Source: Cytophagales bacterium
GTDB taxonomy: Bacteria > Bacteroidota > Bacteroidia > Cytophagales > Cyclobacteriaceae
Reading direction: 5' to 3'
Length of the DNA: 64,000 nucleotides
Assembly (NCBI GenBank): GCA_017303805.1
Contig: JAFLBQ010000009.1
Location: 49,810 to 113,809 of the forward strand
Made by a program: the position numbers and the translations under genes. Shown here in pieces: positions 19,795 through 41,878 of this stretch. Position 1 is the stretch's first letter; every line of letters begins with the position of its first letter. Below the pieces are notes generated by a model. That model saw nothing but the letters and a program-made list of their open reading frames with translations, was not told where the DNA came from and did no database searches.

Positions 19795-22416
19795 CTATTC
19801 AGAGCGAAGGCTCTTTACCGGGTTCATTACCGCAGCGCGAATGGCCTGGTAGCTTACTGTTAAAATAGTAAGGATCAACGCTCCTGCCATTACTAATAAA
19901 ATGAGCAACCAGGAGATTTCTTCATGATATTGATAATTTGCTAACCATTGCGACATGAGATAATACGCGAGCGGAGCTGCCACTAATCCTGAAAGTAAAA
20001 TCAATCCAACAAAGCTTGACGAGAGTAAACTCCAGAGTTGCAAAAGCGAAGCGCCTAATACTTTGCGAATCGCGATTTCTTTAGTGTGTTGTTCGGCCAC
20101 AAACGAAGCTAACCCAATTAAACCAAGGCAACTGATAAACGTGGCGAGGCCTGAAAATATATAGGCTAACTTGCTTATTAACTCCTCGTTTGAAAATTTT
20201 CGGGCATACTCGACATCCACAAATTTATAATCGAAGGGAAGCGAGGGAGCGAATGTTTTAAATATTGATTCAATTGTGGCTAATGATTCGGGTGCGCTAC
20301 GGTCTGGATTTAATTTCATGTTAATCCAGTTTACATAGCGATAGTGGCCATCGAGAAAGTACATGTTATGACGAACCGGAAGGTAGGGAGACTCCATAAT
20401 CATATCTTTAACCACACCGATTACGTGGTACTTAGTATCACCATTGGTAATCTCCATTCCAATAGGATTTTCCACATTCATAAACTTAACAGCCGCTTCG
20501 TTTAAAATTATGGCAAGCGAATCGGATGAAAAATCATGAGAAAAATCTCGACCTTCTAATATTTTCCAATTCAGGGTTTTTCCAAATTCATGATTGACCT
20601 CAACAATCCCAAAGTCTTCAGATTGCAGTGTAGGATCTTTACCCGGCCAGTTATAACCACCACTGTTATTCCAGATTTGTGTAAGTGGAGTAGTAGAGGT
20701 GCCTACTTCAATAACAGCTCCGGTATTCTTTAATGCCAGGCGCAAGGCTTCATACTTACCTATAAAATCGGGCGATTTAACAAAAAAGGTAATCAGCCCA
20801 TCGCGGTCATATCCAATAGGCCTGTTCTTCGAATAATGAATCTGGTTATAGATTACGAGTGTTCCAATTACCAGTGTAATGGATACAGTAAATTGAACCA
20901 CCACCAACACTCTTCGCGGTAACGAAGCCTGGCCATCGGCCTTGAATACTCCTTTTAGAACCTTCACGGGTTTGAAAGAGGATAACATAAATGCGGGATA
21001 AAATCCTGCTGCAAAGCTGGTTACAATAATGAATGCAGAGCCAATAATCCAAAACAACGGATTGTTCCACTCAATTTCAATTTGTTTTGAAGCAAGTTGA
21101 TTAAACCAGGGCAAGGCAACAACCACAATTCCTAAGGCAAAAGCAAAAGCAAAAAATGCCAATAAGAATGTCTCGCTTAAAAACTGGTTGATCAGTTGAT
21201 TTCGGGCCGAACCTATTGTCAAACGAATACCCACCTCCTTCGCGCGCTTTTCAGAGCGAGCCGTAGTAAGATTCATAAAATTAATGCATGCCAATAACAG
21301 CACGAATATCCCAATAACTCCAAACATCACTACCATTTCAATCTGGCCCCCGGTTTTAATCCCATTTTCCCAATTGGAATAAAGGTGCCAGTCAGCCATA
21401 GGGTGAAGAAAAATTTCTGGTTTGAAATAATTGTCTTTAGAATGAGTGGCACGCACCTGGCTAATCTTTTCTGATGTCCGGTTCATATCTGCATGGGGGG
21501 CAAGCTGAACAATAAGTTGAAAGGAATTAAAATCCCACCGGTTCTCTGCGTACCGTATCCAATCTTCAGCAGCTACAATTAATTCCCAGCTCGACAAGAA
21601 TTTTAGATTAGTGAAATTTGAGTTAGTAGGAATATCATGATATACACCGGTAACTTTTACATCGTGGCGGTCCCCAATCCGGAGAGATTGATTTAACGCC
21701 TCGGTTGTGCCGAACAAGGCAATAGCAGTGGACGCTGAAAGCATGATGGATGCAGGATCTTTGAGTCCGGCACGGGTTCCTGAAATCATGTTTAATGAAA
21801 TCATTTCTGGAAAATCTTCCTGTACAAAATTGCCGGATTGCGATATGCTGTGTTCGCCTACACTTAGAATGTGATCAGCCGGCCACGTAGCCATTGCGAA
21901 ATAGCTAAAGTCGTTACCGTAAGTGCTGCGCATCGCGCTTTCCAGGGGTCGGGGTATTGCATAGCCGGTCATCACCTTACCATCCACCGTTTGGTGTTGC
22001 ATTACCTGAGCAAGCCGATCATAATTTTCGTGATGCTTGTTGTAGTTAAGCTCATCCCAAACCCACAACCCAATAAGTATAGCGATTGCCATTCCTACGG
22101 CTAATCCCCCAATATTAATTATGGAGTAACCTTTGTTTCGCAAGAGACTGCGCCACCCGATCTTAAAATAACTTTTATACATACCGTATGTGTTTAAATT
22201 TTTATATCCTTCCATTGGTTTAATGATGCCCGGCCTGAAAAGCATGAGCACATCAATCACAAATCGTAAATCCGCTATTTCTTTCCCAGATTTATTTAAT
22301 CGCCTTTCATATACTTCCAGCAAATCGCCCTCTATATAGTCTTGCAACTTTGGATGGCAGTACCATCGGAAGAAGCGCAAGGCAAGTTTGGGAGGATATG
22401 GTTTTTCGGATTTCAT
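19795..22416 (-). CDS. PadR-linked FtsX permease, CHP-type prefix (single-permease unit)
   Basis: This 873-residue protein has a cytosolic prefix domain of about 80 residues (PPKLALRFFRWYCHPKLQ, IEGDLLEVYE). After the linker LNTYGMYKSYFKIGWRSL comes the first helix GLAVGMAIAILIGLWVW, then a MacB-like periplasmic domain. FtsX block 1 has ACINFMNLTTARSEKRAKE near residue 380 and FtsX block 2 has EQHTKEIAIRKVLGAS near residue 760. It ends NPVKSLRSE. The body is of the 'GLWVWDEL' type, like the permeases at 30198 and 38828. It lies 33 bases after a PadR gene. No ATPase is encoded nearby. The substrate is unknown. Confidence 0.92.
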   Translation of the reverse strand: MKSEKPYPPKLALRFFRWYCHPKLQDYIEGDLLEVYERRLNKSGKEIADLRFVIDVLMLFRPGIIKPMEGYKNLNTYGMYKSYFKIGWRSLLRNKGYSIINIGGLAVGMAIAILIGLWVWDELNYNKHHENYDRLAQVMQHQTVDGKVMTGYAIPRPLESAMRSTYGNDFSYFAMATWPADHILSVGEHSISQSGNFVQEDFPEMISLNMISGTRAGLKDPASIMLSASTAIALFGTTEALNQSLRIGDRHDVKVTGVYHDIPTNSNFTNLKFLSSWELIVAAEDWIRYAENRWDFNSFQLIVQLAPHADMNRTSEKISQVRATHSKDNYFKPEIFLHPMADWHLYSNWENGIKTGGQIEMVVMFGVIGIFVLLLACINFMNLTTARSEKRAKEVGIRLTIGSARNQLINQFLSETFLLAFFAFAFALGIVVVALPWFNQLASKQIEIEWNNPLFWIIGSAFIIVTSFAAGFYPAFMLSSFKPVKVLKGVFKADGQASLPRRVLVVVQFTVSITLVIGTLVIYNQIHYSKNRPIGYDRDGLITFFVKSPDFIGKYEALRLALKNTGAVIEVGTSTTPLTQIWNNSGGYNWPGKDPTLQSEDFGIVEVNHEFGKTLNWKILEGRDFSHDFSSDSLAIILNEAAVKFMNVENPIGMEITNGDTKYHVIGVVKDMIMESPYLPVRHNMYFLDGHYRYVNWINMKLNPDRSAPESLATIESIFKTFAPSLPFDYKFVDVEYARKFSNEELISKLAYIFSGLATFISCLGLIGLASFVAEQHTKEIAIRKVLGASLLQLWSLLSSSFVGLILLSGLVAAPLAYYLMSQWLANYQYHEEISWLLILLVMAGALILTILTVSYQAIRAAVMNPVKSLRSE

Positions 22417-22425
22417 CTATTATTA

Positions 22426-22478
22426 AGTAGGCAGATGTACTTACTCTGCCTACTGGTGACTGCCTACTGCCAACTTTT
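22426..22478. repeat. CTGCCTACT palindromic repeat at a PadR/permease junction
   Basis: The arms AGTAGGCAG (22426-22434) and CTGCCTACT (22446-22454) form a 9-bp hairpin between the PadR gene and the downstream permease. Further TGCCTACTGCC words run into the 3' end of the PadR gene, encoding its last residues. It may attenuate or process the bicistronic transcript. Confidence 0.55.
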
Positions 22479-22812
22479 GTAAACTAACTTCCAATACTGC
22501 CTTCGGTATCGCTTTCCACAATTGCTCGCGTGTTTCTTTGGCGTACAACATAGCTTTCTTACCAAGTGCAGTTATTTCAAAGTAGCGCCTTGGTCGGCCG
22601 GCACGGTCTTCGGTGCTTTCGCCCGAGTAGGATTTTAGGTATCCTTTGTCTTCCAGGCGAATCAAAGCGGTATGCAGCGCACCCATGCTTACGGTTCGCT
22701 TCAGGCGCGATTCGATTTCATCTTTTATTGCCACGCTGTAGGCCTCGTTGTTTAAGATGCCCACGGTTAACAATACAATTTCTTCGAACTCGCCCAGTTG
22801 AAAGTTTTTCAT
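22450..22812 (-). CDS. PadR-family transcriptional regulator (CHP-permease type)
   Basis: This 120-residue winged-helix protein (NFQLGEFEEIVLLTVGILNNE, then VSMGALHTALIRLEDKGYL) carries the PadR 'GR-P-Y/F-x-ITALGKKA' wing near residues 72-90. A C-terminal dimerisation helix follows. PadR proteins usually repress transporter genes and are relieved by small ligands. The last residues (LAVGSHQ) are encoded by a repeat and are probably neutral. A 27-bp element shared with two other PadR genes lies 14 bases upstream, suggesting self-regulation. It heads a two-gene unit with the permease at 19795. Confidence 0.95.
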   Translation of the reverse strand: MKNFQLGEFEEIVLLTVGILNNEAYSVAIKDEIESRLKRTVSMGALHTALIRLEDKGYLKSYSGESTEDRAGRPRRYFEITALGKKAMLYAKETREQLWKAIPKAVLEVSLQKLAVGSHQ

Positions 22813-22826
22813 AATGAAAATATTAT

Positions 22827-22853
22827 TCTCTAAATGTAGGAATAATTGTGCCA
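22827..22853 (-). promoter_or_regulatory. Putative PadR operator/promoter, copy 1
   Basis: This 27-bp block aligns without gaps to blocks at 35982 and 41894. The plus-strand conserved columns are CTA, TGTAG, AATAAT and TGCCA. The centre is a dyad (ATTATTC/GAATAAT at 22822-22828 and 22840-22846). On the minus strand it contains TACATTTA, close to the -7 consensus, so a regulator bound here would block the promoter. It lies 14 bases before the PadR start. Confidence 0.65.
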
Positions 22854-23030
22854 GATTTCTTCAACTTCATTTTGGACACGAAAGAGCGGGGTTGGTTTGC
22901 CTGGAGTGTTCGATTGCGCACACCAATGTGTTAAAAGTGGAATTGTCTTACCAAGGTTTACGTGCACTTAATATTTTTGATGTATCATACTTCAAAAAAA
23001 TTCTTTATGTTACCTTAAGCAATTTCCTAA

Positions 23031-23390: not shown

Positions 23391-23403
23391 AACCAAGTTT
23401 AAA

Positions 23404-23796: not shown

Positions 23797-23821
23797 TAGG
23801 TATCTATAAATTATAAAATTG

Positions 23822-24226: not shown

Positions 24227-24321
24227 GGTCTTAATCTTCGTGTGAAATCCAGCTTAAAAACTGAAGGGCTCGTAGCAATAACTTAAGTTTCATAGCGTCT
24301 CAATTGGCCCCATCCGTGAAA

Positions 24322-26955
24322 TCACTCACTTCTAAGTACTTCTGTTGGATTGATTCGCGATGTTCTAAGCGTGAAGTATCCAAGCGTAATCCACGAGATC
24401 AGGATTAACGCGAACCCGGAGAGAATGAAAACGCCAGGGTGTACGCCCACATTGTAGGTGAAGTTATTCAGCCAGTTGTCCATTACCCACCATGCAGCCG
24501 GAATAGCTATAACAATAGCAATAAAAATGAGTTTTGTAAAATCACTTAGCAACAGGATGATCAGATGAAAAGTAGGAGCCCCCATCACTTTACGGATGCT
24601 GATTTCTTTTGTGCGTTGTTTGAATGATAGCATAGCAATGCCAAACAAGCCAAAGCACGCTATAGTAACGGCAATAAAGGCAAACAGACCAAATGCCAGG
24701 CCTGCGCGCTGCTCGGACTTGTATTGCTGATCTAATTGTTGATCAAGAAATGCAAACTCGAAGTCAAATGACTCATCAAATTTCAAATACACGGCTTTAA
24801 TCTGTGCAATTTTATTTTCAAAGTCACGTGGATCCAGTTTAATAACCAAATGATTGTAGGCTGGATATAAAATGAAAATCAATGGCTGCACGGCATGATG
24901 AATCGACTGAAAATGAAAATCTTTCATCATCCCGATAACAGGCCCTTTTATCGGGTTATCGTTTTTATCCAAATACCAGTTTAGTTCCTTGCCAACAACC
25001 GATCCAGCGTTTAGCTGCCGGGCCGCGGTTTCGTTAACTACAAAAGCAGCTGTTGTATCAGTCAGGTTTTCGGGTAAGAAAAAGCGACCCTCACCCAATT
25101 CAATGTTCATGGTTTTTAAAAGATCATAGTCAACAAATGCTTCTGAACAATCCATTTCAAATTCAGGAGCTTCAACAAGCGAGATACTGTTTTGATTATA
25201 CTGACTACCCGGTAGGTTGGAGCTGGCCGAAACGGCAACAACGCCATCAATAGTCAACAGTTCTGTTTTAAGTGTTTGGATGCGCTTATTGATTGCTCTG
25301 TTCTTAATTGGAATAACAAGTACTTCTTCTTTGTCAAAGCCAAGGTCTTTGTGTTGGATGTAGTTCAGTTGATTGAAAATAATGGTAGTTCCGGAAATCA
25401 GCGCCATCGAAATAACAAACTGAAAAACAATCAGCACACTGCGCAGCCTGTAGCCTTTATTTCCAATTAGGACTTTCCCTTTAAGAACAGAATGGGGTTG
25501 GATGGCAGACAAGTAAAAAGAGGGATAAACACCGGCAAGCAGCGTAACCACACAGCTCAGTGCAATAAGAATCGGAAGGGTTCCTTTATAGGAGAACACA
25601 AACGAATGTCCCGTAAGCGAATTATAAAAGGGCAGTGCTGCCTCGATCAGCAATACGGCAATTGCAAGCGCTATTACTGTAACCAGAAACGCCTCACCTA
25701 GGAATTGAAAAGAAAGTTGCCTCCGCAGTGCGCCCAGGGTCTTTCGGATGCCGATTTCTTTGGCACGGTCAACCGATTTCGCAGTCATCAGGTTCATGAA
25801 ATTAATGCAGGCAATAACCAGGGTGAGCAGTGCAGCGGCCGTCATGATATACACATATTCTATGTTGCCGTTAGGTTCAAGTTCCCAACGCAATTTTGAC
25901 TTTAAATGAATGTCGGTTAGCGGCTGTACACGAAATCCGAAATTATTCGCAGTGGCTTTGCGAAAGTATTCATCGGATACGTTGATGTACTTACGCACCC
26001 ACGGCAGCAGTTTGGCTTCGAGGGCTTTGGCATCGGCACCCGGCTTTAAGCGCACGTAGTTGAAATGACCAAAATCTGCCCAGGTATAGTATTCGCTTTT
26101 CGGATTAAATGATTTTTCGCGCACATATGAAACTAATATATCGAAGTGGAAATGACTTTGATCCGGCACATCTTTAAAAACGGCCATCACTTCCAGCAGG
26201 GCGTCATCCGCATTTACAGCCAGATGCTTGCCAATGGGATCATCGCTGCTAAAATATTTTCTTGCTGTGCTTTCGGAGATTAGCATTCCGTTTACATTCT
26301 TCAATGCTTTTTTAGCATCACCCCGAACTACGGGGAAGCGGAACACATCAAAAAAATTAGTGTCAACCGCAAGAATCTCTTTTTCGTCAAAGCGTAAATC
26401 TTTTTCCAGATTACGGACAGAAAAAGTTCTTCGGGTTAGCCCGGGCCCCCATAGTGGCGATAGGCTTACGGCACTTTCTACTTCCGGAAAATCGCTAACC
26501 ATGGCCAGGGCCATGGGGTGGGGAGTACGCGTTTGCGGATTTTCATTTTCCCATGTAATCCGGTAAAGATTTTCATAGTGATCGTAATACCGATCGTAAT
26601 CGAGTTCGTGCCGTATGTACGTGACCATAAGAAAAACGCTGGCAATACCCAATGCCAGGCCGCTGATCTTAATAAGCGTATGGGCTTTACTTTTAAGTAA
26701 ACTGCGCCATGCAATTGTAAAATAATTTTTATACATACTAAATGTGGTGGGTTGTTGGTTTTTAAAAGTCTTTATGAACTGAGGCCTGAAATATTTTAAT
26801 ACACTCCAGCTAAATTTCCATTTCGCTTGGCGCGGAGATGATTCAGATTGTTTGATGAAAATCTCTGTCAGATCGCCCTCAATCTCTTCGAGATAATCTT
26901 CGCGGCAAAACCAGCGAAGGAATTGCAGGGCTCTTTTTGGTGGAAGTGCTTGCAT
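24322..26955 (-). CDS. PadR-linked FtsX permease, CREDY-type prefix (second in unit)
   Basis: This 877-residue protein has a prefix domain of the second kind: PPKRALQFLRWFCREDYLEE, IEGDLTEIF, AKWKFSWSVLKYFRP. The linker FSMYKNYFTIAWRSL leads to TM1 (ISGLALGIASVFLMVTYI). The periplasmic domain is MacB-like (ISESTARKYFSSDDPIG, FKDVPDQSHFHF). FtsX block 1 has CINFMNLMTAKSVDRAKE near residue 385; block 2 has KQRTKEISIRKVMGAP near residue 765. It ends INPTEVLRSE. It lies 54 bases after the permease at 27010, with which it shares prefix type. It has no cognate ATPase nearby. Confidence 0.92.
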   Translation of the reverse strand: MQALPPKRALQFLRWFCREDYLEEIEGDLTEIFIKQSESSPRQAKWKFSWSVLKYFRPQFIKTFKNQQPTTFSMYKNYFTIAWRSLLKSKAHTLIKISGLALGIASVFLMVTYIRHELDYDRYYDHYENLYRITWENENPQTRTPHPMALAMVSDFPEVESAVSLSPLWGPGLTRRTFSVRNLEKDLRFDEKEILAVDTNFFDVFRFPVVRGDAKKALKNVNGMLISESTARKYFSSDDPIGKHLAVNADDALLEVMAVFKDVPDQSHFHFDILVSYVREKSFNPKSEYYTWADFGHFNYVRLKPGADAKALEAKLLPWVRKYINVSDEYFRKATANNFGFRVQPLTDIHLKSKLRWELEPNGNIEYVYIMTAAALLTLVIACINFMNLMTAKSVDRAKEIGIRKTLGALRRQLSFQFLGEAFLVTVIALAIAVLLIEAALPFYNSLTGHSFVFSYKGTLPILIALSCVVTLLAGVYPSFYLSAIQPHSVLKGKVLIGNKGYRLRSVLIVFQFVISMALISGTTIIFNQLNYIQHKDLGFDKEEVLVIPIKNRAINKRIQTLKTELLTIDGVVAVSASSNLPGSQYNQNSISLVEAPEFEMDCSEAFVDYDLLKTMNIELGEGRFFLPENLTDTTAAFVVNETAARQLNAGSVVGKELNWYLDKNDNPIKGPVIGMMKDFHFQSIHHAVQPLIFILYPAYNHLVIKLDPRDFENKIAQIKAVYLKFDESFDFEFAFLDQQLDQQYKSEQRAGLAFGLFAFIAVTIACFGLFGIAMLSFKQRTKEISIRKVMGAPTFHLIILLLSDFTKLIFIAIVIAIPAAWWVMDNWLNNFTYNVGVHPGVFILSGFALILISWITLGYFTLRTSRINPTEVLRSE

Positions 26956-29746: not shown

Positions 29747-30073
29747 TCAGCCAAACGATATTTTCGGAATCTGCTTGTAGATGCTGTTGCGTAATTCATA
29801 TTGTGCATCGAGCATTCGCTTACCAACAGCAGTAATCACATAAAACTTTTTGCGTCTGCCGCCCCGGTCTTCGGTAATTCCGCCAAAGCGGGATTTTACA
29901 AAACCTTTGTCTTCAATGCGCTTCAACGCTACGTGCACCGCACTGATGTTTACTTTCTTTTTTAGCTTTTCTTCCAAGCCTTCGAGTATCGCTACACCGT
30001 AGGCTTCGTCATGTAATGCGGCAACCATGAGCAATACCAGCTCTTCAAATTCACCGAGGGATTGTTGTGTCAT
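29747..30073 (-). CDS. PadR-family transcriptional regulator (divergent, CREDY-permease type)
   Basis: This 108-residue winged-helix protein (SLGEFEELVLLMVAALHDEA, VNISAVHVALKRIEDKGFV) keeps the PadR layout. The wing reads GGRRKKFYVITAVGKRM instead of GRPKKYF, and the recognition helix differs (ISAVHVALKRIE versus MGALHTALIRLE). It is clearly separate from the other three PadR proteins here. It heads the unit with the two CREDY-prefix permeases. Upstream lies a 52-bp dyad, unlike the element before the other PadR genes, which fits its altered recognition helix. Confidence 0.95.
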   Translation of the reverse strand: MTQQSLGEFEELVLLMVAALHDEAYGVAILEGLEEKLKKKVNISAVHVALKRIEDKGFVKSRFGGITEDRGGRRKKFYVITAVGKRMLDAQYELRNSIYKQIPKISFG

Positions 30074-30197: not shown

Positions 30198-32825
30198 CTA
30201 TTCCGATCTCAAGCTTTTCACTGGATTCGCCAGCGCGGCTTTAATGGCTTGATAACTTACGGTAAGTATTGTTACGGCCAATGCCCCAACACCCGTTAAG
30301 ACGAAAGCAAACCATGAAATGTCGGTGCGATAATCGTAGTGCTGCAACCAGCCGTTCATGAATGAATATGTCATCGGTACAGCCAATACAAATGATAGAA
30401 TGACTAACACAACAAAATCTTTTGAAAGCATCTTCCATATTGAAGCCAGTGATGCACCCATCACTTTGCGAATACCTATTTCTTTGGTACGCTGTTCGGC
30501 TACAAACGAAGCAAGACCAAAAAGTCCGAGGCAACTGATTACAATAGCCAGCGTGCTGAAGATAGAAGCCAGCTTACCGATTCGTTCTTCGGCTTTGAAC
30601 TTGGCCATGTAGTCGTCATCGGCAAAAGTAAAATCGAACGGGGCTGAGGGTACGATTTTCTTAAAGGCGGTTTCTATTTTAGGCAGCGCCTCGTGTGCCG
30701 TTGCTTTGTCGTTCATGCGAATGTGCAGCCAACCCTGGTCACCTCCCGAAAAAAAGTACAAGCACGGATCTGTTTTTTGAAAAGGCGAGCCCTTCACCAC
30801 ATCGCGGATAACGCCCAGTATTTTAAACTCTTCGCGGTGGTCATTCCGGTTTCTGATCAGAACTTCGTCTGTTGCATTTTCGAAGCCGAAGATTTTGGCA
30901 GTGGTTTCGTTAATAATAACCCCGCTGGCATCGGCCGGAAAGGCACGTGAGAAATCGCGGCCTTCCAGAAATTCCCAGCCAATGGTTTTTCCATATTCGG
31001 GCGTAACTGCGTTGATATTAAAGGTAAGGTCATTTAAACTTTCATCTTTCCCGCGCCAGTCGAAGCCACCATTCCAGCCCAGGGTACTTACAATTGAATA
31101 ATTGGATTCAGCTACTTCATCCACCACACCGGTAGCTTTCAACTCGTTTCGCAGCACTTCGTACTTGCCAATAAATTCGGGCGAACGCGGATGAAGTGAA
31201 ATCAATCCTTCGCGCGAGTAGCCAATGGGTCGGTTCTTGGCAAATTGAATTTGTTGATATACGATGGCCGTGCCGATGATGAGGCTGATCGAAACGGTGA
31301 ATTGGACAGTAACTAAAATTTTCCGGGGCAGCGAAGCAAAGCGCCCCATCTTGAATGTGCCCTTTAAAACCTGAACGGCATTGAAAGAGGATAAGTAAAG
31401 CGCAGGGTAGCTTCCGGCCAGCAAGCCTGTTAGAAAAGTAAATGCGAAGCACCCTAACCAGAACAGCGGCTCGCGCCACGGCAGCGTCATGTCTTTATCG
31501 GCAATCTGATTATAGAACGGGAGACAGATTTGCGTAAGCAGCAACGACACAATAAATGCAAGTGTGGCAACAAGAAAGGCCTCGCTGTAAAACTGCCCTA
31601 CCAGTTGGCCGCGCACAGAGCCAATAGATTTTCGGATGCCGACTTCTTTCGCTCGTTTTTCTGAACGGGCGGTGGTAAGGTTCATAAAGTTGATGCATGC
31701 CAGCGCCAATACAAAACAACCGATAATTCCATAATACCACACGGAGTTCATCAACGGGCTCCGTACCTGCACACCATTTTCAAAATAGGATTTGAGATGC
31801 CAGTCTTCCATCGGTACTACAAACAATTCTGGTTTTGAGGCAGCACTGTTGGCATCAATGTGTGGCAACATGGCATCTTTAATTACGCCCGAAGTGCGCT
31901 TAAAATCTCCATTGGTTTTTAACTGAACATATACGTACACATTATAATTGTCCCATACATTCAAATGGCTCCACCCGTTCAGATAAAGATCGAGCGGGGC
32001 CAGGTAGGTGGCATCGTAAAACACAGAGTTCTTGGGCAAGTCTTCGTACACCCCGGTAACTTTCAAATCCCATTTATTATCCATGCGGATAATTTGGCCT
32101 ACAGGATTTTCAGTATTAAAAAATTTGCGCGCCACGGACTGCGACAATAAGATAGACGACATATCGGCCAGGCCACCGCGTGTGCCATGAATCATGTGAA
32201 GCGAAAACATTTCGGGGCCATCAGGCTGCATGAAATAGCCTACTTGCGTGAATTGATTTTCGCCAAAGCCCAACACGTGTTCTTCATTGCGCCCGCGTAC
32301 AATAGCCACTTTTTCAAAGTGCGATGCATATTCTTCGCGCAGCAAAGTGCCCACACCGGTGGTTACAATGTTGCCGGTTTGAATTTGCCCTTGCCGGAGA
32401 TTGTGACGATACACCTGCCCAATGCGATCGTAATTCTGGTGATAGCGATTGAACGTGAGTTCATCCCACATCCACAAGCCGATGAGCAGGGCTACTGTCA
32501 TACCCAGCGCAAGTCCACCAATGTTTATCAGTGAATAACCCTTGTTGCGAAGAAGATTTCGCCAGCCGATTTTAAAATAACTTTTATACATACCGTAAGT
32601 GTTTAAATTTTTATTGCCTTCTATGGGTCGGATTATTTCACGTCTTAGCAAGAGTAACACATCTAACATGAATCTTATGTCTGCCTTCCACTTTCCGTTT
32701 TTAGCTACGCGAACCCCATAGTCTTCCAACAAATCACCCTCGATGTGGTTGAGCATCCGCGGATGACAATACCACCGGAAGAAGCGATGGAAAAGTTTGG
32801 GTGGATAATGTTCGCTCTTTTTCAA
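30198..32825 (-). CDS. PadR-linked FtsX permease, CHP-type prefix (second in unit)
   Basis: This 875-residue protein probably starts at a TTG (32823-32825; MKKSEHYPPKL), since no in-frame ATG precedes the conserved prefix. The prefix (PPKLFHRFFRWYCHPRMLNH, IEGDLLEDYG) is nearly identical to that of the permease at 32898. After the linker comes a 'GLWMWDEL' body (YFKIGWRNLLRNKGYSLIN). FtsX block 1 has CINFMNLTTARSEKRAKEVG near residue 380 and FtsX block 2 has EQRTKEIGIRKVMGAS near residue 762. It ends NPVKSLRSE. It is the distal gene of the PadR-35631 unit. Confidence 0.92.
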   Translation of the reverse strand: MKKSEHYPPKLFHRFFRWYCHPRMLNHIEGDLLEDYGVRVAKNGKWKADIRFMLDVLLLLRREIIRPIEGNKNLNTYGMYKSYFKIGWRNLLRNKGYSLINIGGLALGMTVALLIGLWMWDELTFNRYHQNYDRIGQVYRHNLRQGQIQTGNIVTTGVGTLLREEYASHFEKVAIVRGRNEEHVLGFGENQFTQVGYFMQPDGPEMFSLHMIHGTRGGLADMSSILLSQSVARKFFNTENPVGQIIRMDNKWDLKVTGVYEDLPKNSVFYDATYLAPLDLYLNGWSHLNVWDNYNVYVYVQLKTNGDFKRTSGVIKDAMLPHIDANSAASKPELFVVPMEDWHLKSYFENGVQVRSPLMNSVWYYGIIGCFVLALACINFMNLTTARSEKRAKEVGIRKSIGSVRGQLVGQFYSEAFLVATLAFIVSLLLTQICLPFYNQIADKDMTLPWREPLFWLGCFAFTFLTGLLAGSYPALYLSSFNAVQVLKGTFKMGRFASLPRKILVTVQFTVSISLIIGTAIVYQQIQFAKNRPIGYSREGLISLHPRSPEFIGKYEVLRNELKATGVVDEVAESNYSIVSTLGWNGGFDWRGKDESLNDLTFNINAVTPEYGKTIGWEFLEGRDFSRAFPADASGVIINETTAKIFGFENATDEVLIRNRNDHREEFKILGVIRDVVKGSPFQKTDPCLYFFSGGDQGWLHIRMNDKATAHEALPKIETAFKKIVPSAPFDFTFADDDYMAKFKAEERIGKLASIFSTLAIVISCLGLFGLASFVAEQRTKEIGIRKVMGASLASIWKMLSKDFVVLVILSFVLAVPMTYSFMNGWLQHYDYRTDISWFAFVLTGVGALAVTILTVSYQAIKAALANPVKSLRSE

Positions 32826-35554: not shown

Positions 35555-35632
35555 AATAGTGGCAAGCTTAGTATCGACTGCCTACTGAATTCTGCCAACT
35601 GCCTACTTTCTTCAAATTCAACTTCTACAATC
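35555..35632. repeat. CTGCCTACT-type repeat at a PadR/permease junction
   Basis: Degenerate words GACTGCCTACTG, CTGCCAACTGCCTACTT recur between the permease start and the PadR stop, as at 22426. Separation of the two genes by this repeat, rather than a short spacer, is shared with the other units. Confidence 0.45.
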
Positions 35633-35969
35633 AACTGAATTTCACATTAAGCGACACATCCGGAATTGCACCCCAAAGTGCATTGCGTGTTTCGCGCGAA
35701 TATTCCATGGCTTTTTTACCCAGCGCTGTAATCTGAAAATATTTTTTGGGTCGGCCCATGCGCTCCTCCGTTGGTTCACCATCGTGCGAGCGGATATAGC
35801 CCTTGTCTTCTAACCGTACCAGGGCGGTATGCATAGCGCCCATGCTCACGTTGCGTTTCAGGCGCGATTCAATTTCATTTTTGATAGCCAGTCCATAGGC
35901 CTCTTTATATAGAATGGCGATGGTGAGCATCACGATTTCTTCGAACTCACCCAGTTGGTATTTCTTCAT
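35631..35969 (-). CDS. PadR-family transcriptional regulator (CHP-permease type)
   Basis: This 112-residue winged-helix protein (YQLGEFEEIVMLTIAILYKE, VSMGAMHTALVRLEDKGYI) has the wing GRPKKYFQITALGKKA and a dimer helix RETRNALWGAIPDVSL. It is very close to the PadR proteins at 22450 and 41540. The shared 27-bp element lies 12 bases upstream. It heads a unit with the permeases at 32898 and 30198, separated from the first by a repeat-rich gap. It is probably a repressor of its own operon. Confidence 0.95.
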   Translation of the reverse strand: MKKYQLGEFEEIVMLTIAILYKEAYGLAIKNEIESRLKRNVSMGAMHTALVRLEDKGYIRSHDGEPTEERMGRPKKYFQITALGKKAMEYSRETRNALWGAIPDVSLNVKFS

Positions 35970-35981
35970 GACAAGACTATT

Positions 35982-36008
35982 TTCCTAAATGTAGGAATAA
36001 TCATGCCA
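35982..36008 (-). promoter_or_regulatory. Putative PadR operator/promoter, copy 2
   Basis: Gap-free 27-bp counterpart of the elements at 22827 and 41894, 23 of 27 identical to each. The core dyad is TTCCTA/TAGGAA (35982-35987 and 35992-35997) with a four-base centre. On the minus strand TACATTTA overlaps the dyad. It ends 12 bases before the PadR start. Confidence 0.68.
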
Positions 36009-36175: not shown

Positions 36176-38779
36176 TTACTCGCTGCGCAAACTATTTACC
36201 GGGTTAGCCACTGCTGCTTTGAGCGAACGGAAGCCTGCTGTAAGCATAATAATGGCCAGGATAATCAGAAGCTCAAGAACAAACACGCCAACGCCAATCT
36301 CGGTTTTGTACACATAGCTGGTAAGCCATTGCGACATGAGCAACCAACCCAACGGGGCGGCAATAAAAAATGCAATCACCACCAGCCGTGAAAATTCTTT
36401 TCCAAAAATCCACAGTATTTGAGGCACGCTGCCGCCCAACACTTTTCGAATGCCAATCTCTTTTGTTTTTTGGAGGGCCATGAAAGACACCAACCCGTAC
36501 AACCCAAGGCACCCGATAAGCAGCGCGATGGCCGAGAACACCTGCACCACCGTAAGCATGGTTTGTTCGGCCTTGTAAAAGGATGCAATCTGATCGTCCA
36601 GAAAATCGTAGTGATAAATTGGCTCCGGATACATAGCACTCCAGGCTTTTTCAATGGCCGGCAACGTGGTGGCCGCTTCGGCCATGTTTATTTTGATGGC
36701 ATAACTGTTATAAAAATTTCTTGGTGTGGTGATAAAGATGGGCTCTATCTCTGCATGGAGCGATTGATCATGAAAATCTTTTACAACACCTACTATCGGG
36801 CCTTTAATGCTGCCTCCGTTGGCATACATAAATTTTCCTAAAATATCTTCTGGTGAAGCAAGGCCTAGTTTCAGCACGGCTTTTTCGTTTACCAGAAACT
36901 CGCGTACGGTATCAGAGGCGGTTACATTTCTTCCGGCCACCAATTCAAGCCCGAATAAAGCGAGGTAATCTTCATCGCCTCCTTTAAAATAGATCGGAAA
37001 TTCTTCTGCTTCGGTACGGGTATCGAACCGAAACGAAGTACCCCACATATTTTCGGAGGCGGGCGATCCAAAACAAGCCGATACTTTTTCTACATGTGGT
37101 ATGGCTTCGAATTGTGTCTTTAAGGTATTGAGCTTCTGGTCTCTCGATCCTACCGGCACCATTACCACGGCATCGCGATCAAAGCCCATGTCCATTTTAT
37201 TAACATAGCGCATTTGATAAAACATTACGATCAGGCCAATGAGCAGTACCTGCGAGATGGTAAACTGCGCAATGATGAGTCCGCGCCTGATGTTGAAACT
37301 TCCCGGCCCGCCTTTTAAATTTCCTTTTAAGGCGAGCACCGGTTTGAAGCGCGACAAAACGATGCCCGGGTAGGCACCCGATAACAGGGTTACAGCCGCG
37401 ATTACAATGATCAGGAACAACAGCAACCGCACATCCGAAAATACATTCAGCGAAAGCGTAACATTGAAAAATTCATTCATGAATGGCAGCACGGTATAAG
37501 AAGCGGCAAAGGCCAGTAAGGTGGCCAGCACCACGATTACTCCCGCTTCGGTAGTAAATTGCCAGAATAGTTGTGCGCGCAACCCGCCCATAACTTTGCG
37601 TACGCCCACTTCTTTGGCGCGCGTAACCGCTTGTGCCGTGGCCAGATTGATAAAGTTGAGGCACGCTGTAAACACCAGCAGAAACCCGATGGTGGATAAG
37701 ATCCAAATCGTGTTGATGCTCATCTTGCCACCGTACTGGGCATTAAAATGCATGTCGCTAAGAGCTTGCATTTTGTAGTGATGCACATTTTTACTTTTTG
37801 GCCTGTACTTCTGCACATAGGTTGGAAGCACGGCTTCTACTTCGGTGGGATTTACGCCTGGTTGCAGCCGCGTGAACACCTGAATTTCAGATGTAATTCC
37901 ACCCCACGCATCGTCTGCAGCGTACCAATCATTGTATTGCTTCATGGTACTGTACGAAAAATAGATCTCGGTATTCAGGTCGGTGGCTGCGGGGATGTCT
38001 TTCAAAACACCCACTACAGTAAAATCGATATCGGAACCAAGCCGGATAATTTTGCCAAGCGCAAGTTGATCTCCAAAATATTTTTTTGCGATTTGGCCGG
38101 TAATAACTGCGGTGTTAGGTTCACGCAACAGGCCATCTGCTTTTCCGGCAACCAGTGGGAAGTTAAAAATCTCGAAGAACTCCGGATCGGCAAAAGCAAC
38201 TTGCTCCTGGAACTTTCTTTTTTCACCGTTTTCATCAAGAGTAATAAGCTTGTCGTTCAAGGTGCAGAGGCGTGTTACCTTTTCGCCAAAGGCATAGTCA
38301 TCGCGAAAAGCTTTGCCAAAGGCGGGCGGCACGTTTGGAGAATATTCAACCTCACCGTGGTGTTCTTCGGTTACAAACCGATAAATGCGGTCTGCTTGCG
38401 CATGGAATTTGTCAAAGTCGAGATGATGGCGTACTAAAGAGAAAATGAGCAGTGCACAGGCAATGCCCAAGGCAAGACCAAAAACATTGATGGCTGCATA
38501 CGCTCTTTTTGAGGTTATGTTGCGCCAAGCTGTTACAAAATAATTTTTATACATAGCGTACGTGTTTAAATTTTGATACCCTTCTGTTGGTTTAATAATG
38601 CCCGGTCGAAAAAGGAATAATACATCTTTAATAAAGTGAGCATCCGCTTTTAACTTTCCACTCTTAAGTTTTCTTTCTTCATATAACTCCATCAAATCAC
38701 CTTCAATACTATCGCGCAACTTCGGATGGCAGAACCAGCGGAAGAAGCGGAGGGAGAGTTTGGGGGGATTTGATTTCAT
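36176..38779 (-). CDS. PadR-linked FtsX permease, CHP-type prefix (second in unit)
   Basis: This 867-residue protein starts at MKSNPPKLSLRFFRWFCHPK (ATG at 38777-38779); an upstream start would read through repeat DNA. The prefix (LRDSIEGDLMELYEERK) nearly matches that of the permease at 38828. The body differs: TM1 FGLALGIACALLIFSLVRH, FtsX block 1 CLNFINLATAQAVTRAKEVG near residue 375, block 2 QKTKEIGIRKVLGGS near residue 755. It ends NPVNSLRSE. It lies 48 bases after the permease at 38828 and is probably co-transcribed with it and the PadR gene. The substrate is unknown. Confidence 0.92.
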   Translation of the reverse strand: MKSNPPKLSLRFFRWFCHPKLRDSIEGDLMELYEERKLKSGKLKADAHFIKDVLFLFRPGIIKPTEGYQNLNTYAMYKNYFVTAWRNITSKRAYAAINVFGLALGIACALLIFSLVRHHLDFDKFHAQADRIYRFVTEEHHGEVEYSPNVPPAFGKAFRDDYAFGEKVTRLCTLNDKLITLDENGEKRKFQEQVAFADPEFFEIFNFPLVAGKADGLLREPNTAVITGQIAKKYFGDQLALGKIIRLGSDIDFTVVGVLKDIPAATDLNTEIYFSYSTMKQYNDWYAADDAWGGITSEIQVFTRLQPGVNPTEVEAVLPTYVQKYRPKSKNVHHYKMQALSDMHFNAQYGGKMSINTIWILSTIGFLLVFTACLNFINLATAQAVTRAKEVGVRKVMGGLRAQLFWQFTTEAGVIVVLATLLAFAASYTVLPFMNEFFNVTLSLNVFSDVRLLLFLIIVIAAVTLLSGAYPGIVLSRFKPVLALKGNLKGGPGSFNIRRGLIIAQFTISQVLLIGLIVMFYQMRYVNKMDMGFDRDAVVMVPVGSRDQKLNTLKTQFEAIPHVEKVSACFGSPASENMWGTSFRFDTRTEAEEFPIYFKGGDEDYLALFGLELVAGRNVTASDTVREFLVNEKAVLKLGLASPEDILGKFMYANGGSIKGPIVGVVKDFHDQSLHAEIEPIFITTPRNFYNSYAIKINMAEAATTLPAIEKAWSAMYPEPIYHYDFLDDQIASFYKAEQTMLTVVQVFSAIALLIGCLGLYGLVSFMALQKTKEIGIRKVLGGSVPQILWIFGKEFSRLVVIAFFIAAPLGWLLMSQWLTSYVYKTEIGVGVFVLELLIILAIIMLTAGFRSLKAAVANPVNSLRSE

Positions 38780-38786
38780 TCTTTTA

Positions 38787-38822
38787 TAACAACCAGTTGC
38801 CAGTATACCGGTAACTGGTAAC
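38787..38822. repeat. CCAGTTgCCAGT inverted repeat between two permease genes
   Basis: ACCAGTTGCCAGTATACCGG is followed by TAACTGGTAAC, giving an imperfect hairpin in the 48-base gap between the permeases at 38828 and 36176. The words belong to the CCAG(C/T)AACCAG repeat class also seen at the start of the kinase gene at 52059. Confidence 0.45.
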
Positions 38823-38827
38823 ATCTC

Positions 38828-41464
38828 TTATTCGCTTCTCAAACTGTTTACCGGGTTTGCCAAAGCGGCCCTTACAGACTGATAGCTCACCGTGAGTAGG
38901 GTGATCACTAATGCCCCCACAGTTGCATAGGCAAAAATCCACCAGCCCATTTCTGTTTTGTATTCGTACTGTTTAATACCGTTGTACAAAATGTAGTAGG
39001 AGAGTGGTGCCGCAATGATGCAAGACAGCACAACAAGAATCACAAACTCTTTTGAAAGCATTTGCCACAAGTTGGCTACTGATGCTCCTAAAATTTTTCG
39101 CACGCCAATCTCTTTTGTGCGTTGCTCGGCCACAAACGAGGCGAGACCAAATAACCCAAGGCAGCTGATTATAATTGCGAGAATTGCGAACACAGCAGCC
39201 AGTTTGCCGATGCGATCTTCAGTAGAAAATTTCGCAGCGTATTCGGTGCTGGCAAATTTGTAATCGAATGGAATGTCGGGAATTACATTATTAAATACTT
39301 TTTCGATTTTAGGAAGCGCTTCTTGCATCGGCATGCCTGGCGTAACGCGAAGCATAAGCCAACCTTTCCAGCCCATGGTAAAATAGATAGTTGGTTTCAC
39401 CGGCTCGAATGGAGAGTCCATCACCATGTCTTTAATCACGCCCAGGATGACGAAATCTTTATCTACTTGCCAGGGTCCGTTTTTCCAATGAATAACCTGC
39501 CCGCTCGGATTTGTCAGATCCATGAATTTTACTGCAGCTTCATTAATAACAAACCCTTCGGAATCGCTCGCAATGTCTTTCGAAAAATCGCGACCCTCTA
39601 CAAACTTCCAACCAACTGTTTTTCCAAAGTCGTGCGATACCTGCAGTGTAGCAAGCCCTCTGTCTTTGTCAACCACCACTCCATTTTTCGAAAAGCCACT
39701 GTTGTGCGACCATACATTGGTTACTTCTCCGCCAGATTCTGCTACTTCAGTAACGGCACCTGAGTTTTTCAATTCAGCCTTGAGCGTTTCTGCTTTGGTG
39801 TTAAAATCGCCCGATTTTTTTGGAATCATTAACAAACCATCCCGGTCGTAACCAACCGGGCGATTTTTTACAAACACAAGCTGATTGTAAATCACGCCCG
39901 TGCAGATAATCAACATAACAGAAACCGTGAATTGTACCACTACTAAAATTTTTCTTGGTAGGGAGGCCGATCTTCCCGCCCGGAAAACTCCTTTTAACAC
40001 ACTCACCGGTTTGAAGGATGACAAGTATAAGGCAGGGTAACTTCCTGCTAGCAAACCTGTGATGAACAGAAAAATAAAACTACTAATCCAAAACCAGGGC
40101 TCGGTCAAAGGCATATTCATTTCTTTACCAGAAAGGTTATTGAACCAGGGAAGAGAAACAAACACACATGCTATCGCGATGACGAAAGCAAATACAGCAA
40201 CTAAAAATGATTCGCTTAGAAATTGTCCTATCAATTGCCTGCGGATGGAGCCGATGGCTTTGCGAATACCCACTTCCTTTGCGCGCTTTTCCGATCGTGC
40301 GGTGCTTAGATTCATGAAGTTGATGCAAGCCAGCAACAACACAAACACCCCGATCGAACCAATGAACCAAACCAGTTGCATTGGTCCGCTTTGCAACACG
40401 CCTTCTTTGAAATCGGCCCGTAAATGCCAATCATGCATAGGCAGAAGAAGAATTTCGTAGTTGTACTTCAATTCATCCTTCATGTAAGCAAGGTCTTTGA
40501 TTGCTGTAGCTTCGGCATTGATAATATTGGCAGTGGTACTTTCAAAAGTGGCGTGTGGCTGTATCTCTGCAAAAATCTCGAGAAAGTGATTGTCCCAACC
40601 TTGTTGCTTCATCCATGCTCCATCGCTCACAAGAAATTCCCAGGGCCGAAAGAACTGCACACCATGAAAGGCTGTGTTCTTGGGAAAGTCTTCGTACACT
40701 CCCATAATGGTAGCTTCTCTCTCACCATTAATTTTTACGATTTGATTAAGGGGATCTGAATCTCCAAACAGGGCTTCAGATGTTGATTCTGAAATCATAA
40801 TGGAATTCATGTCTGTTAACGCCTTCCATGTGCCATAAATCATTTTGAAAGTCAGCATCTCAGGGGCATCCTCTCCAATGAACATTCCCACTTTAGAAAT
40901 TTTCTTATCTTGAATAGAGAGTACTGCGTCTGACTTCCAGGAAGCCGGAACGATGTGCTTGAAATTCGCCCCGTAATTATTTTTCAATTCGTCAATCAGC
41001 GGAAAGGGCAAAGAAGTTTGGCCCACGTAGTGTTTGCCTTCAAAGCTTCCGCCTTTCATTACCTGTGCAATGCGCGAATAATTCTCATGGTACTTATTAA
41101 AGGACAGTTCATCAAACACCCACAGGCCAATCACCAGGGCCATGCCCATTCCCAAAGCAAGCCCGCCAATATTAATAAGTGAGTAACCTTTGTTCTTGGC
41201 AAGATTTCTCCAACCGATTTTAAAATAACTTTTATACATACCGAACGTGTTTAATCTTTCTGTTCCTTCTGTTGGTTTAATAATGGCTGGCCTGAATAGC
41301 AGTAGTACATCTTTAACAAAGTGCGCATCAGCTTTTAGTTTTCCACTTTTAATTCTTCTCTCTTCATACAGTTCCATCAAATCCCCTTCAATGCTATCGC
41401 GCAACTTCGGATGGCAAAACCAGCGGAAGAAGCGGAGGGGGAAACGAGGTGGATAATTTTTCAT
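38828..41464 (-). CDS. PadR-linked FtsX permease, CHP-type prefix (first in unit)
   Basis: This 878-residue protein has the prefix PPRFPLRFFRWFCHPKLRD, IEGDLMELYEERR, nearly the same as the permease at 36176. The linker FGMYKSYFKIGWRNLAKNKG leads to a 'GLWVFDEL' body (GGLALGMGMALVIGLWVF) like those at 19795 and 30198. FtsX block 1 has CINFMNLSTARSEKRAKEVG near residue 385 and FtsX block 2 has EQRTKEIGVRKILGAS near residue 765. It ends NPVNSLRSE. It is the first permease after the PadR gene at 41540, with a palindromic repeat between them. Confidence 0.92.
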   Translation of the reverse strand: MKNYPPRFPLRFFRWFCHPKLRDSIEGDLMELYEERRIKSGKLKADAHFVKDVLLLFRPAIIKPTEGTERLNTFGMYKSYFKIGWRNLAKNKGYSLINIGGLALGMGMALVIGLWVFDELSFNKYHENYSRIAQVMKGGSFEGKHYVGQTSLPFPLIDELKNNYGANFKHIVPASWKSDAVLSIQDKKISKVGMFIGEDAPEMLTFKMIYGTWKALTDMNSIMISESTSEALFGDSDPLNQIVKINGEREATIMGVYEDFPKNTAFHGVQFFRPWEFLVSDGAWMKQQGWDNHFLEIFAEIQPHATFESTTANIINAEATAIKDLAYMKDELKYNYEILLLPMHDWHLRADFKEGVLQSGPMQLVWFIGSIGVFVLLLACINFMNLSTARSEKRAKEVGIRKAIGSIRRQLIGQFLSESFLVAVFAFVIAIACVFVSLPWFNNLSGKEMNMPLTEPWFWISSFIFLFITGLLAGSYPALYLSSFKPVSVLKGVFRAGRSASLPRKILVVVQFTVSVMLIICTGVIYNQLVFVKNRPVGYDRDGLLMIPKKSGDFNTKAETLKAELKNSGAVTEVAESGGEVTNVWSHNSGFSKNGVVVDKDRGLATLQVSHDFGKTVGWKFVEGRDFSKDIASDSEGFVINEAAVKFMDLTNPSGQVIHWKNGPWQVDKDFVILGVIKDMVMDSPFEPVKPTIYFTMGWKGWLMLRVTPGMPMQEALPKIEKVFNNVIPDIPFDYKFASTEYAAKFSTEDRIGKLAAVFAILAIIISCLGLFGLASFVAEQRTKEIGVRKILGASVANLWQMLSKEFVILVVLSCIIAAPLSYYILYNGIKQYEYKTEMGWWIFAYATVGALVITLLTVSYQSVRAALANPVNSLRSE

Positions 41465-41476
41465 GGTTTTATCTCA

Positions 41477-41546
41477 GACGTAAGTATCAAGACATAAGAT
41501 GTTAGACAGAGTGGAGTCTTGCTACTTGTGTCTTATTACTTAAGTC
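41477..41546. repeat. Palindromic repeat, long form, at a PadR/permease junction
   Basis: The left arm (41477-41498, containing TAAGTATCAAGACATAAG) and right arm (41525-41546, starting CTTGTGTCTTAT) pair at about 18 of 22 positions. The 26-base centre (TTAGACAGAGTGGAGTCTT words) resembles that of the element at 36104. The right arm supplies the stop codon and last codons of the PadR gene. Confidence 0.6.
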
Positions 41547-41878
41547 ATTTTAACATCCAATGCAACTTTCGGTATCGCACTCCACAACTCTTCGCGTGTG
41601 ATGCGTGTGTACTCCATCGCTTTCTTTCCGTAAGCAGTAATGATAAAATATTTTTTGGGTCTGCCCGCCCGCTCTTCGGTAGCTTCACCTTCGCGCGATT
41701 TCAAGTAGCCTTTGTCTTCCAATCTTCTTAAAGCAGTTTGCAATGCGCCCACGCTTACACCGCGTTTCAGCCGGCTTTCAATTTCTTTTTTAATAGATAC
41801 TCCGTAGGCTTCATCGTATAAGATGCCCACGGTTAGCATCACCACTTCTTCAAACTCGCCAAGTTGATATTTCTTCAT
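41540..41878 (-). CDS. PadR-family transcriptional regulator (CHP-permease type)
   Basis: This 112-residue winged-helix protein (YQLGEFEEVVMLTVGILYDE, VSVGALQTALRRLEDKGYL) has the wing GRPKKYFIITAYGKKA and a dimer helix ITREELWSAIPKVAL. It is closely similar to the PadR proteins at 22450 and 35631. It heads a unit with the permeases at 38828 and 36176. The shared 27-bp element lies 15 bases upstream. The stop codon falls inside a palindromic repeat. Confidence 0.95.
   Translation of the reverse strand: MKKYQLGEFEEVVMLTVGILYDEAYGVSIKKEIESRLKRGVSVGALQTALRRLEDKGYLKSREGEATEERAGRPKKYFIITAYGKKAMEYTRITREELWSAIPKVALDVKMT

Follow-up and report, generated by a model that had tools for sequence, protein, structure and literature searches.

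The N-terminal tag of a set of FtsX/MacB-type permeases matches, residue by residue, the PadR regulator encoded beside it, and is swapped like a plug between permease bodies, which on sequence comparison suggests direct permease-to-PadR signalling. The array described here lies in a 64,000-nt stretch of contig JAFLBQ010000009.1 from a Cytophagales bacterium (the window). It comprises four PadR-led units (A-D) on the minus strand, each with one or two FtsX/MacB-type permeases behind the PadR gene, and all eleven ORFs were found where the initial annotation had placed them. The N-terminal prefix domain it had proposed was recognised as perm_prefix_2 (NF038404) in 7/7 array permeases.

41540..41878, minus strand: PadR A, 112 aa, K31; Pfam PadR 44.3 bits
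38828..41464, minus strand: permease A1, 878 aa; prefix, then two MacB_PCD/FtsX halves, in that order
41243-41464, minus strand: A1 prefix, approximately aa 1-74, E35
36176..38824, minus strand: permease A2, E35; MacB_PCD/FtsX and perm_prefix_2
about 38558-38779, minus strand: A2 prefix; 81% identical to A1 in the prefix versus 30% in the body
35631..35969, minus strand: PadR B, 112 aa, N31; Pfam PadR 46.6 bits
32898..35549, minus strand: permease B1, I35; prefix about 35313-35549
30198..32825, minus strand: permease B2, TTG start, V35; prefix about 32595-32825
29747..30073, minus strand: PadR C, 108 aa, E31; Pfam PadR 35.7 bits
27010..29649, minus strand: permease C1, I35; prefix about 29434-29649
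24322..26955, minus strand: permease C2, K35; prefix about 26740-26955
22450..22812, minus strand: PadR D, 120 aa, D31; Pfam PadR 44.8 bits
19795..22416, minus strand: permease D1, R35; prefix about 22189-22416

All four PadR proteins passed the cut-off of Pfam PadR (PF03551, 27 bits); PadR C is 46-47% identical to PadRs A, B and D, and PadR D is 71% identical to PadR A. Each of the seven permeases (873-883 aa) has MacB_PCD and FtsX matches. The NF038404 model (cut-off 35 bits) scored 45.7-59.0 bits on six of them and 58.5 bits on A2 (match at C13:88397), which probably starts at 38779 rather than 38824; the model gives the domain a name without an attached function. Intergenic gaps are 33-97 bp between PadR and permease and 3-72 bp between permeases. 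An 870-residue plus-strand ORF adjoining the array (17095-19707) encodes a DUF5916/CBM9 protein and is no permease.

Two separately gathered sets of loci were compared. Set 1 consisted of loci L050-L169 and the window, that is, 20 stretches of the same genome and 100 others hand-picked from the best-scoring among the matches listed; set 2 held the best 80 of at least 555 confirmed PadR matches, some from genomes also represented in set 1. The gene order proposed for the window is no accident and recurs in operon-like form. In its own genome, 19/19 prefixed permeases sit in PadR-led units, and when loci were gathered with PadR as the only criterion, a permease followed 90 of 97 PadRs, the first one bearing a prefix in 90/90. 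PadR was directly upstream of 19 of the 23 focal prefixed ORFs (51 loci), and 15 of 16 prefix-less permeases in the fetched stretches lay outside PadR-led units. Median gaps over 217 units were -1 bp (PadR-permease) and 18 bp (permease-permease), which, with starts set at the first possible codon, are too short if anything. Gene fusions of PadR and permease, which would have pointed to contact, were absent from the 80 PadR-collected loci. Close synteny in the congener G017 was rejected: among its six prefix matches, the three full permeases compared were only 32-39% like the window bodies, and no conserved array was found.

The initial annotation derived the units from duplication of a cassette. 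This is right only in part: the prefix (~75 residues) follows the unit and the body does not, so whole-cassette copying is unsupported and was rejected as the main history. Unit mates in the window are 66-90% identical in the prefix and 28-37% in the body (B2 versus B1, 90% and 28%; C2 versus C1, 66% and 37%). Bodies A1, B2 and D1 are alike across units (49-51%), whereas the mates A1/A2 and B1/B2 share only 28-30%, and bodies have therefore been shuffled behind prefixes. Among units present in the PadR alignment (four set-1 units absent from it were left out), the prefix was more similar than the body in 65/65 mate pairs of set 1 and 9/9 of set 2 (74/74 together), with mean identities of.683 versus.341 and.757 versus.372, respectively. 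The nearest prefix in the genome belonged to the unit mate in 62 of 69 cases and the nearest body in 16 of 69 (10.1 expected). Up to residue 91, sequence windows showed a 1.9-2.0 fold excess identity between mates, which dropped to 1.04-1.24 fold in those from residue 92 on. Elsewhere, bodies that are 83-92% identical carry different prefixes beside different PadRs. Prefix-less bodies are dispersed on the body tree, but not at random: the prefix label changes 31 times versus a shuffled mean of 39.4 and minimum of 36 (41 prefix-less bodies).

PadRs had been expected to group with their adjacent permeases, and the answer was split: PadR similarity followed the prefix closely, but its link with the body was weak or absent. 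The correlation was.613 for prefix versus.179 for body in set 2 (n = 87),.284 versus.057 in set 1 (n = 126) and.454 versus -.008 for later permeases (n = 38), using 266 of 269 records after duplicate removal and permeases longer than 780 aa in set 1 and 500 aa in set 2. The PadR-body correlation was weak, not nil (partial.178 in set 2, 2/999;.092 over all units, 1/199), and one body window reached.171. For 69 body pairs at least 60% identical from different units, r was.91 between prefix and PadR and.44 between body and PadR; after removal of the near-identical ones (66 pairs left), the values were.91 and.34.

At the level of residues, in an analysis that used the 261 of 284 pairs whose body exceeds 780 aa, five of 7884 prefix-PadR column pairs exceeded z 5, as compared with 0/78084 for body and PadR. 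The strongest, prefix 35 with PadR 31 (z 11.1), shows recurring charge swaps (R-D, E-K, K-E): the 284 pairs comprise 154 with opposite charges, 6 with like charges and 124 with an uncharged side. Units A (E35/K31) and D (R35/D31) have the charge pair reversed. Shuffling within genomes never reproduced the charge matching (0/5000), and of only nine independent pairs on supported branches, on average 8.4 were concordant and 0.0 discordant (median p.008, range.004-.07). Locus L051 exemplifies like charges (E-E), and coupled positions 23 and 61 lie off the single face suggested by the other coupled positions. Covariation may also carry ancestry, and the PadR tree is short. In held-out genomes, the five column pairs picked the right paralogue in 68 of 119 cases (chance 15, body pairs 20). 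Because some set-2 genomes are also in set 1, pairing was repeated without training PadRs of at least 65% identity, and 47/119 were correct versus 16. Residue matching between prefix and PadR is best explained by direct contact, and at the sequence level docking of the prefix to PadR is well supported.

Candidate PadR operators were identified upstream of the PadR genes:

41893..41911, minus strand: unit A, TATTnCTACAnnTAGGAA type; 1 mismatch to the 19-mer
35981..35999, minus strand: unit B, inverted repeat TTCCTA-N4-TAGGAA; 1 mismatch to the 19-mer
22826..22844, minus strand: unit D; 3 mismatches to the 19-mer, profile 24.4 bits
30088..30133, strand not assigned: unit C, a different inverted repeat, ACTTAACA...TGTTAAGT, upstream of PadR C

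The mismatch count in unit D is at the genome-wide chance level, but the site lies where expected; the unit C repeat gave 1 match versus a mean of 0.00 expected. An operator-like motif was found upstream of 122 of 213 PadR genes and in 0 letter shuffles, with a profile trained on the same upstream regions that it later scored. This common palindrome fits autoregulation as a predicted mode of control. A sigma-54-like element (TGGCAY-N5-TTnC; 10/213, shuffled mean 0.5) overlaps the window operators and was rejected, and its strict TTGC form occurred in 0/213 PadR upstream regions. TAnnTTTG, which we take to be the Bacteroidetes -7 element, was weakly enriched (45/213 versus a shuffled mean of 32.1, maximum 40).

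We therefore propose, with a probability of about 0.6, that the units are autoregulated signalling operons, with the prefix docking the PadR of its own operon and the body serving as an exchangeable sensor or transporter; we infer the signal, its direction and any transport. PadR would occupy the palindrome preceding the PadR gene and hold operon expression low. The body, consisting of transmembrane helices and two periplasmic MacB-type domains, would be swappable, and its periplasmic part would respond to a ligand or to envelope stress by changing the cytoplasmic prefix, the putative docking domain for the PadR that the operon's first gene encodes. The changed prefix would capture (or free) PadR and switch the operon, capture versus release being a guess. 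Where a PadR gene is followed by two or more permeases, these would feed a single switch in parallel. As a tentative generalisation, with odds somewhat below even, such operons may make up a family that signals across the membrane in one step, alongside two-component systems, with ATPase-less, transporter-derived receptors whose extracellular sensor bodies are freely swapped behind a short docking domain encoding partner identity; up to 63 of these receptors per genome would be insulated from each other by a charge code that each shares with its PadR.

The initial annotation had read the units as stress or export modules; export is unproven, as no transporter ATPase gene stands beside this genome's units. 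ABC_tran matches were absent within 3.4 kb of its 19 prefixed permeases, a count that left out eight shorter or broken permease matches; the nearest to the window units is 13.8 kb away. At least two of those eight matches (C10:132203 and C7:39407) lie near ABC_tran by eye. At other loci, a rough ABC motif scan within 3 kb, which overlooks at least one of the known ATPases and in which 113 units had less than 3 kb of flank on a side, found 2/217 units by strict and 5/217 by loose settings (one being the permease itself). Ordinary PadR-regulated efflux would have PadR bind a drug or small molecule, as LmrR-type PadRs bind drugs directly, and so derepress the orphan permease, which would export the compound with an ATPase acting in trans, the prefix serving only stability or assembly. 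The genome does encode several stand-alone ABC ATPases (211-251 aa), and the bodies keep the cytoplasmic MacB-type motif (E397, G399, R401, again E785 and R789) that we take to face the ATPase; such retention is expected of a working ABC permease and counts against the signalling-operon reading. Efflux is nonetheless unlikely, since it leaves prefix-PadR covariation, charge swaps and prefix exchange between near-identical bodies without a reason, and the own genome lacks neighbouring ABC_tran genes within the distance given. On the signalling reading, too, the bodies may transport, drawing on an ATPase encoded elsewhere in the genome.

Control could also run in reverse, with PadR, once docked on the prefix, gating or localising the permease and transcriptional signalling being secondary. 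The docking data fit this equally, as a contact has no direction; given the palindrome and the conserved operon order, a transcriptional loop is simpler, and we rank reverse control, also improbable, below efflux. Least probable is gene conversion without function, in which neighbouring gene starts are homogenised and the 5' ends of PadR and prefix are copied together: copying does occur, as mates share.545 of their fourfold-degenerate sites in the prefix (693/1272) against.303 in the body (2539/8381), and B1/B2 share.87 of 23 sites, but prefix fourfold identity is below.5 in 31 of 71 mate pairs, whose prefixes are still 60% alike on average versus 33% for bodies (31/31), and joint copying predicts neither complementary charge swaps recurring along the tree and within genomes nor column pairs that pick partners in held-out genomes.

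The proposed signalling operons resemble several known systems in part. ADOPs (TIGR03434, with padR_acidobact TIGR03433) are duplicated orphan permeases with a double body, no neighbouring ATPase, large paralogous sets and PadR beside them. The window permeases likewise carry two MacB_PCD/FtsX copies beside PadR with no adjoining ATPase gene. Unlike ADOPs, they fall far below the models' cut-offs (258.0-311.4 against 622.3 bits in the six permeases scanned; 36-38 against 101.8 bits in the three PadRs scanned). The body fold is that of type VII ABC permeases (best PDB match YbbAP 9ge6, E 6.7e-20, with MacB, LolCDE and BceAB entries among the next). YbbAP, MacB, LolCDE and BceAB each have a dedicated ATPase, of which none was found beside this genome's units; BceAB doubles as a sensor, and we know of no PadR-matched prefix in these four.

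The arrangement also resembles the HAAS-PadR-like wHTH dyad, for which signal transfer to PadR has been proposed (mSystems 2024, PMC11237479). HAAS is there described as a small helical domain on membrane proteins, always beside a stand-alone PadR, and FtsX/MacB_PCD fusions to it are listed (e.g. ACO32024.1). The perm_prefix_2 domain is likewise coupled to a stand-alone PadR gene. The dyad was proposed from gene context together with a predicted groove bearing a GxP motif, whereas residue covariation and domain swapping are measured here; together with the pairing, covariation supports contact between prefix and PadR, a putative route for the signal. The likeness is one of arrangement, with neither a Pfam nor a PDB match tying the two: HAAS has three helices with the third kinked at GxP, and the prefix model has helices 7-16, 19-40 and 42-56 (pLDDT 72, moderate confidence) but matched no fold in the PDB, and the perm_prefix_2 consensus shows a nearly invariant R58, mostly followed by P, and no GxP. 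Pfam searches of 75 prefixes (E up to 1) returned no HAAS, DUF1700 or DUF1048 family, the library's coverage of HAAS being unconfirmed. In the Listeria LltR operon, a PadR gene likewise precedes a membrane protein, here with a DUF1700 (HAAS-type) domain, and three operon genes rise 107-151 fold in the lltR* mutant (PMC6624303). That membrane protein differs from the window permeases, and docking does not figure in that account of the operon.

In environmental bacteria, orphan FtsX/MacB permeases that lack ATPases occur as large paralogous sets; a regulator-matched docking domain would turn these presumed exporters into candidate receptors. The covariation names the residues that may set partner choice, so that the predicted HAAS/PadR-style signalling becomes testable by a two-protein assay, and units A and D, with their naturally reversed charges, offer a ready-made specificity experiment.

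The initial annotation had described a repeating array of PadR genes and FtsX/MacB-like permeases, and this array is real. Four units lie on the minus strand at 19795–41878, and their ORFs, all intact, matched the family models PadR, MacB_PCD, FtsX and perm_prefix_2 (NF038404), the last over the N-terminal ~75 residues of the permeases (the prefix; the remainder is termed the body).

Units of the array, from ORFs and family models
within 19795–41878, minus strand: unit A, PadR A with permeases A1 and A2
within 19795–41878, minus strand: unit B, PadR B with permeases B1 and B2
within 19795–41878, minus strand: unit C, PadR C with permeases C1 and C2
within 19795–41878, minus strand: unit D, PadR D with permease D1

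The structure predicted for full A1 was confident (pLDDT 86.9, pTM 0.81), and the closest solved structure was YbbAP; the matches ranking next included MacB, LolCDE and BceAB entries. Just outside the array, 14583–16808 encodes a 741-aa MacB_PCD/FtsX permease with neither a prefix match nor an adjoining PadR. At the array end, 17095–19707 encodes a large protein on the plus strand that combines CBM9-like and DUF5916 domains, and three small plus-strand glyoxalase/bleomycin-resistance-like genes stand in tandem between units C and D (23031–24226; ORFs 1 and 2 overlap).

Permeases of one unit (mates) were alike in the prefix rather than in the body: identities were 81% and 30%, respectively, for A1/A2, 90% and 28% for B1/B2, and 66% and 37% for C1/C2, while the bodies of A1, B2 and D1, from three separate units, were 49–51% alike. 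Across 28 multi-permease units from 12 genomes, the prefix was closer than the body in all 65 mate pairs (means.683 vs.341), as it was in 9/9 pairs of a second set, once narrowly (.53 vs.51). In 62 of 69 cases the nearest same-genome prefix was that of a mate, as against 16 of 69 (10.1 expected) for the nearest body; the excess similarity of mates dropped at about residue 90 of A1. Conversely, prefixes 20–54% identical were found on bodies 83–92% identical (locus pairs L183/L184, L153/L184 and L203/L185), and C1 shared 64% of its body and 30% of its prefix with a permease elsewhere in the same genome (L050:6171). In 69 cross-unit pairs with body identity of at least 60%, PadR identity correlated with prefix identity at r =.91 and with body identity at.44 (.91 and.34 for the 66 pairs left when near-identical ones were removed).

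PadR-led units contained all 19 prefixed permeases of the window's genome, and 15 of the 16 prefix-less permeases in the fetched stretches of that genome lay outside such units. The exception, L053:4455–7133, is a PadR-led permease whose N-terminal extension (~85 aa) differs from perm_prefix_2 and matched no Pfam or NCBIfam prefix model; the PadR of its unit belongs to another type, and the extension is possibly a second docking module. To avoid selection by prefix, loci were also collected by PadR alone (set 2, the best 80 of at least 555 confirmed PadR matches). Ninety of the 97 PadRs in these 80 loci led a permease, and the first permease was prefixed in 90/90. Units held 101 of the 104 prefixed permeases of these best 80 loci vs 3 of the 17 prefix-less ones, each of the three in second place. 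The remaining seven PadRs were near a contig edge (four) or stood alone (three); the latter could serve distant permeases in trans.

Stand-alone PadR genes of the same subfamily
L196:7001–7330, no permease directly downstream
L210:7001–7342, no permease directly downstream
L224:7001–7321, no permease directly downstream

perm_prefix_2 was present in 30 of 60 sampled genomes of the window's family (up to 63 matches each), in 26 of 148 genomes of the order sample and in 26 of 296 of the phylum sample. Within one family, matches per genome ranged from 0 to 63 (sampled genomes G011, G035, G042 and G059).

Over whole sequences, the rank correlation of PadR with the prefix exceeded that with the body in set 2 (.613 vs.179; 87 units from the best 80 of at least 555 PadR matches), in set 1 (.284 vs.057; 126 units from the window, stretches of its genome and loci picked among the best-scoring prefix matches listed) and for second-or-later permeases (.454 vs −.008; 38 units); the three prefix values were attained by 0/999 permutations. 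The body is not quite neutral with respect to PadR: its partial correlation in set 2 was.178 (attained by 2/999 permutations), and one body window reached.171 vs.276 and.241 for the two prefix windows.

Covariation across 261 pairs was strongest between prefix 35 and PadR 31 (z 11.1), 23 and 74 (8.4), and 56 and 46 (7.9), numbered by A1 and PadR A. Five of 7884 prefix–PadR column pairs exceeded z 5, vs 0 of 78084 body–PadR pairs (maximum 4.6). The commonest 35–31 states (n = 284) were R-D (69), E-K (50), K-E (19), Q-E (13) and R-E (10); charges were opposite in 154 pairs and like in 6, the remainder being uncharged on one side. When PadRs were shuffled within genomes (169 set-1 pairs), the observed value was attained in 0/5000 trials (opposite 89 vs a null mean of 58.0; like 3 vs 21.8). 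When PadR columns 31 and 74 were omitted from tree building, the PadR tree showed 22 changes of joint charge state, and nine independent supported-branch pairs averaged 8.4 concordant and 0.0 discordant prefixes (median p.008, range.004–.07). Unit A carries E-K and unit D R-D, yet PadRs A and D are 71% identical; the state is I/V-N in unit B and I/K-E in unit C. With the whole test genome excluded from training (119 units, 15 genomes), the five best prefix–PadR column pairs picked the right partner for 68 units (chance 15.0), vs 20 for the five best body pairs and 24–33 for ten random prefix pairs. Removing training PadRs at least 80% identical to any test PadR left 68 (prefix) and 13 (body), and at least 65% identical, 47 and 16.

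We put at roughly 0.85 the probability that the prefix docks on the PadR of its own unit. In the structure predicted for the prefix, coupled prefix positions 24, 32 and 35 on predicted helix 19–40, and 52 and 56 on helix 42–56, have single-face spacing; 60 and 61 lie beyond the end of the latter, and 23 misfits the face. Alignment with PadR folds would place PadR 30, 31 and 36 in the second helix, 46 and 51 in the recognition helix and 74 in the wing, an arrangement that may allow docking to compete with DNA.

At fourfold-degenerate sites, mates agreed at.545 in the prefix (693/1272) and.303 in the body (2539/8381), and the prefix was higher in 60 of the 71 mate pairs with enough sites, with an identity of at least.7 in 12. 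Gene starts are thus copied or gene-converted, recently so in some units such as B1/B2 (.87 of 23 sites). Prefix fourfold identity was nevertheless below.5 in 31/71 pairs, whose prefixes were still 60% alike (bodies 33%; means), which points to selection in addition to copying.

Many PadR genes are preceded by a palindromic element, TATTnCTACAnnTAGGAATA, with its CTAC a median 29 bp before the start. A profile trained on the same upstreams that it scored exceeded 12 bits in 122/213 of them, in 0/213 after letter shuffling and in 16 when the reverse strand was scored; CTAC-N3-TAGG occurred in 58/213, and two shuffles that preserved dinucleotides gave 0 each. The element was found at units A, B and D; unit C, whose PadR is the most distant of the four, has a different inverted repeat. 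Sites with at most one mismatch occurred in this genome solely before PadR A and PadR B, and those at three mismatches were mostly chance (48 vs 35 for the reversed pattern). TGGCAY-N5-TTnC, resembling sigma-54 promoters, overlaps the candidate operator at 41906–41920 (A), 35994–36008 (B) and 22839–22853 (D), and is present in 10/213 PadR upstreams.

Among the 49 ABC_tran matches in the window's genome, none lay within 3.4 kb of any of the 19 prefixed permeases, the nearest (3434 bp) being UvrA-like; two of 19 full-length prefix-less permeases had one ~1 kb away. In loci beyond this genome, a strict motif scan placed an ABC-like ORF within 3 kb of 2/217 units, both ~1000 aa and the one profile-scanned UvrA-like. 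A looser scan gave 5/217, one being the permease itself and another an unclassified 308-aa ORF on the opposite strand (L221). The claim that the permeases are orphans rests on the window's genome because the motif scan overlooks at least one ATPase already identified by ABC_tran (window ~55014) and 113/217 units had less than 3 kb of flanking sequence on one side.

NCBI models exist for the prefix and for ADOP. A partial literature search found no mention of a "permease prefix domain" and no earlier account of either prefix–PadR contact evidence or body swapping. In published work, a HAAS–PadR dyad was proposed from gene context, with FtsX/MacB_PCD fusions among its examples (PMC11237479), and a Listeria operon encoding a PadR regulator and a DUF1700 membrane protein was derepressed in the regulator mutant (PMC6624303). 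The complete story, in which a prefixed permease would signal to its own unit's PadR, we consider somewhat better than an even bet. The main interest of the array is a swappable prefix sequence-matched to the adjoining PadR, more than the repeat itself.
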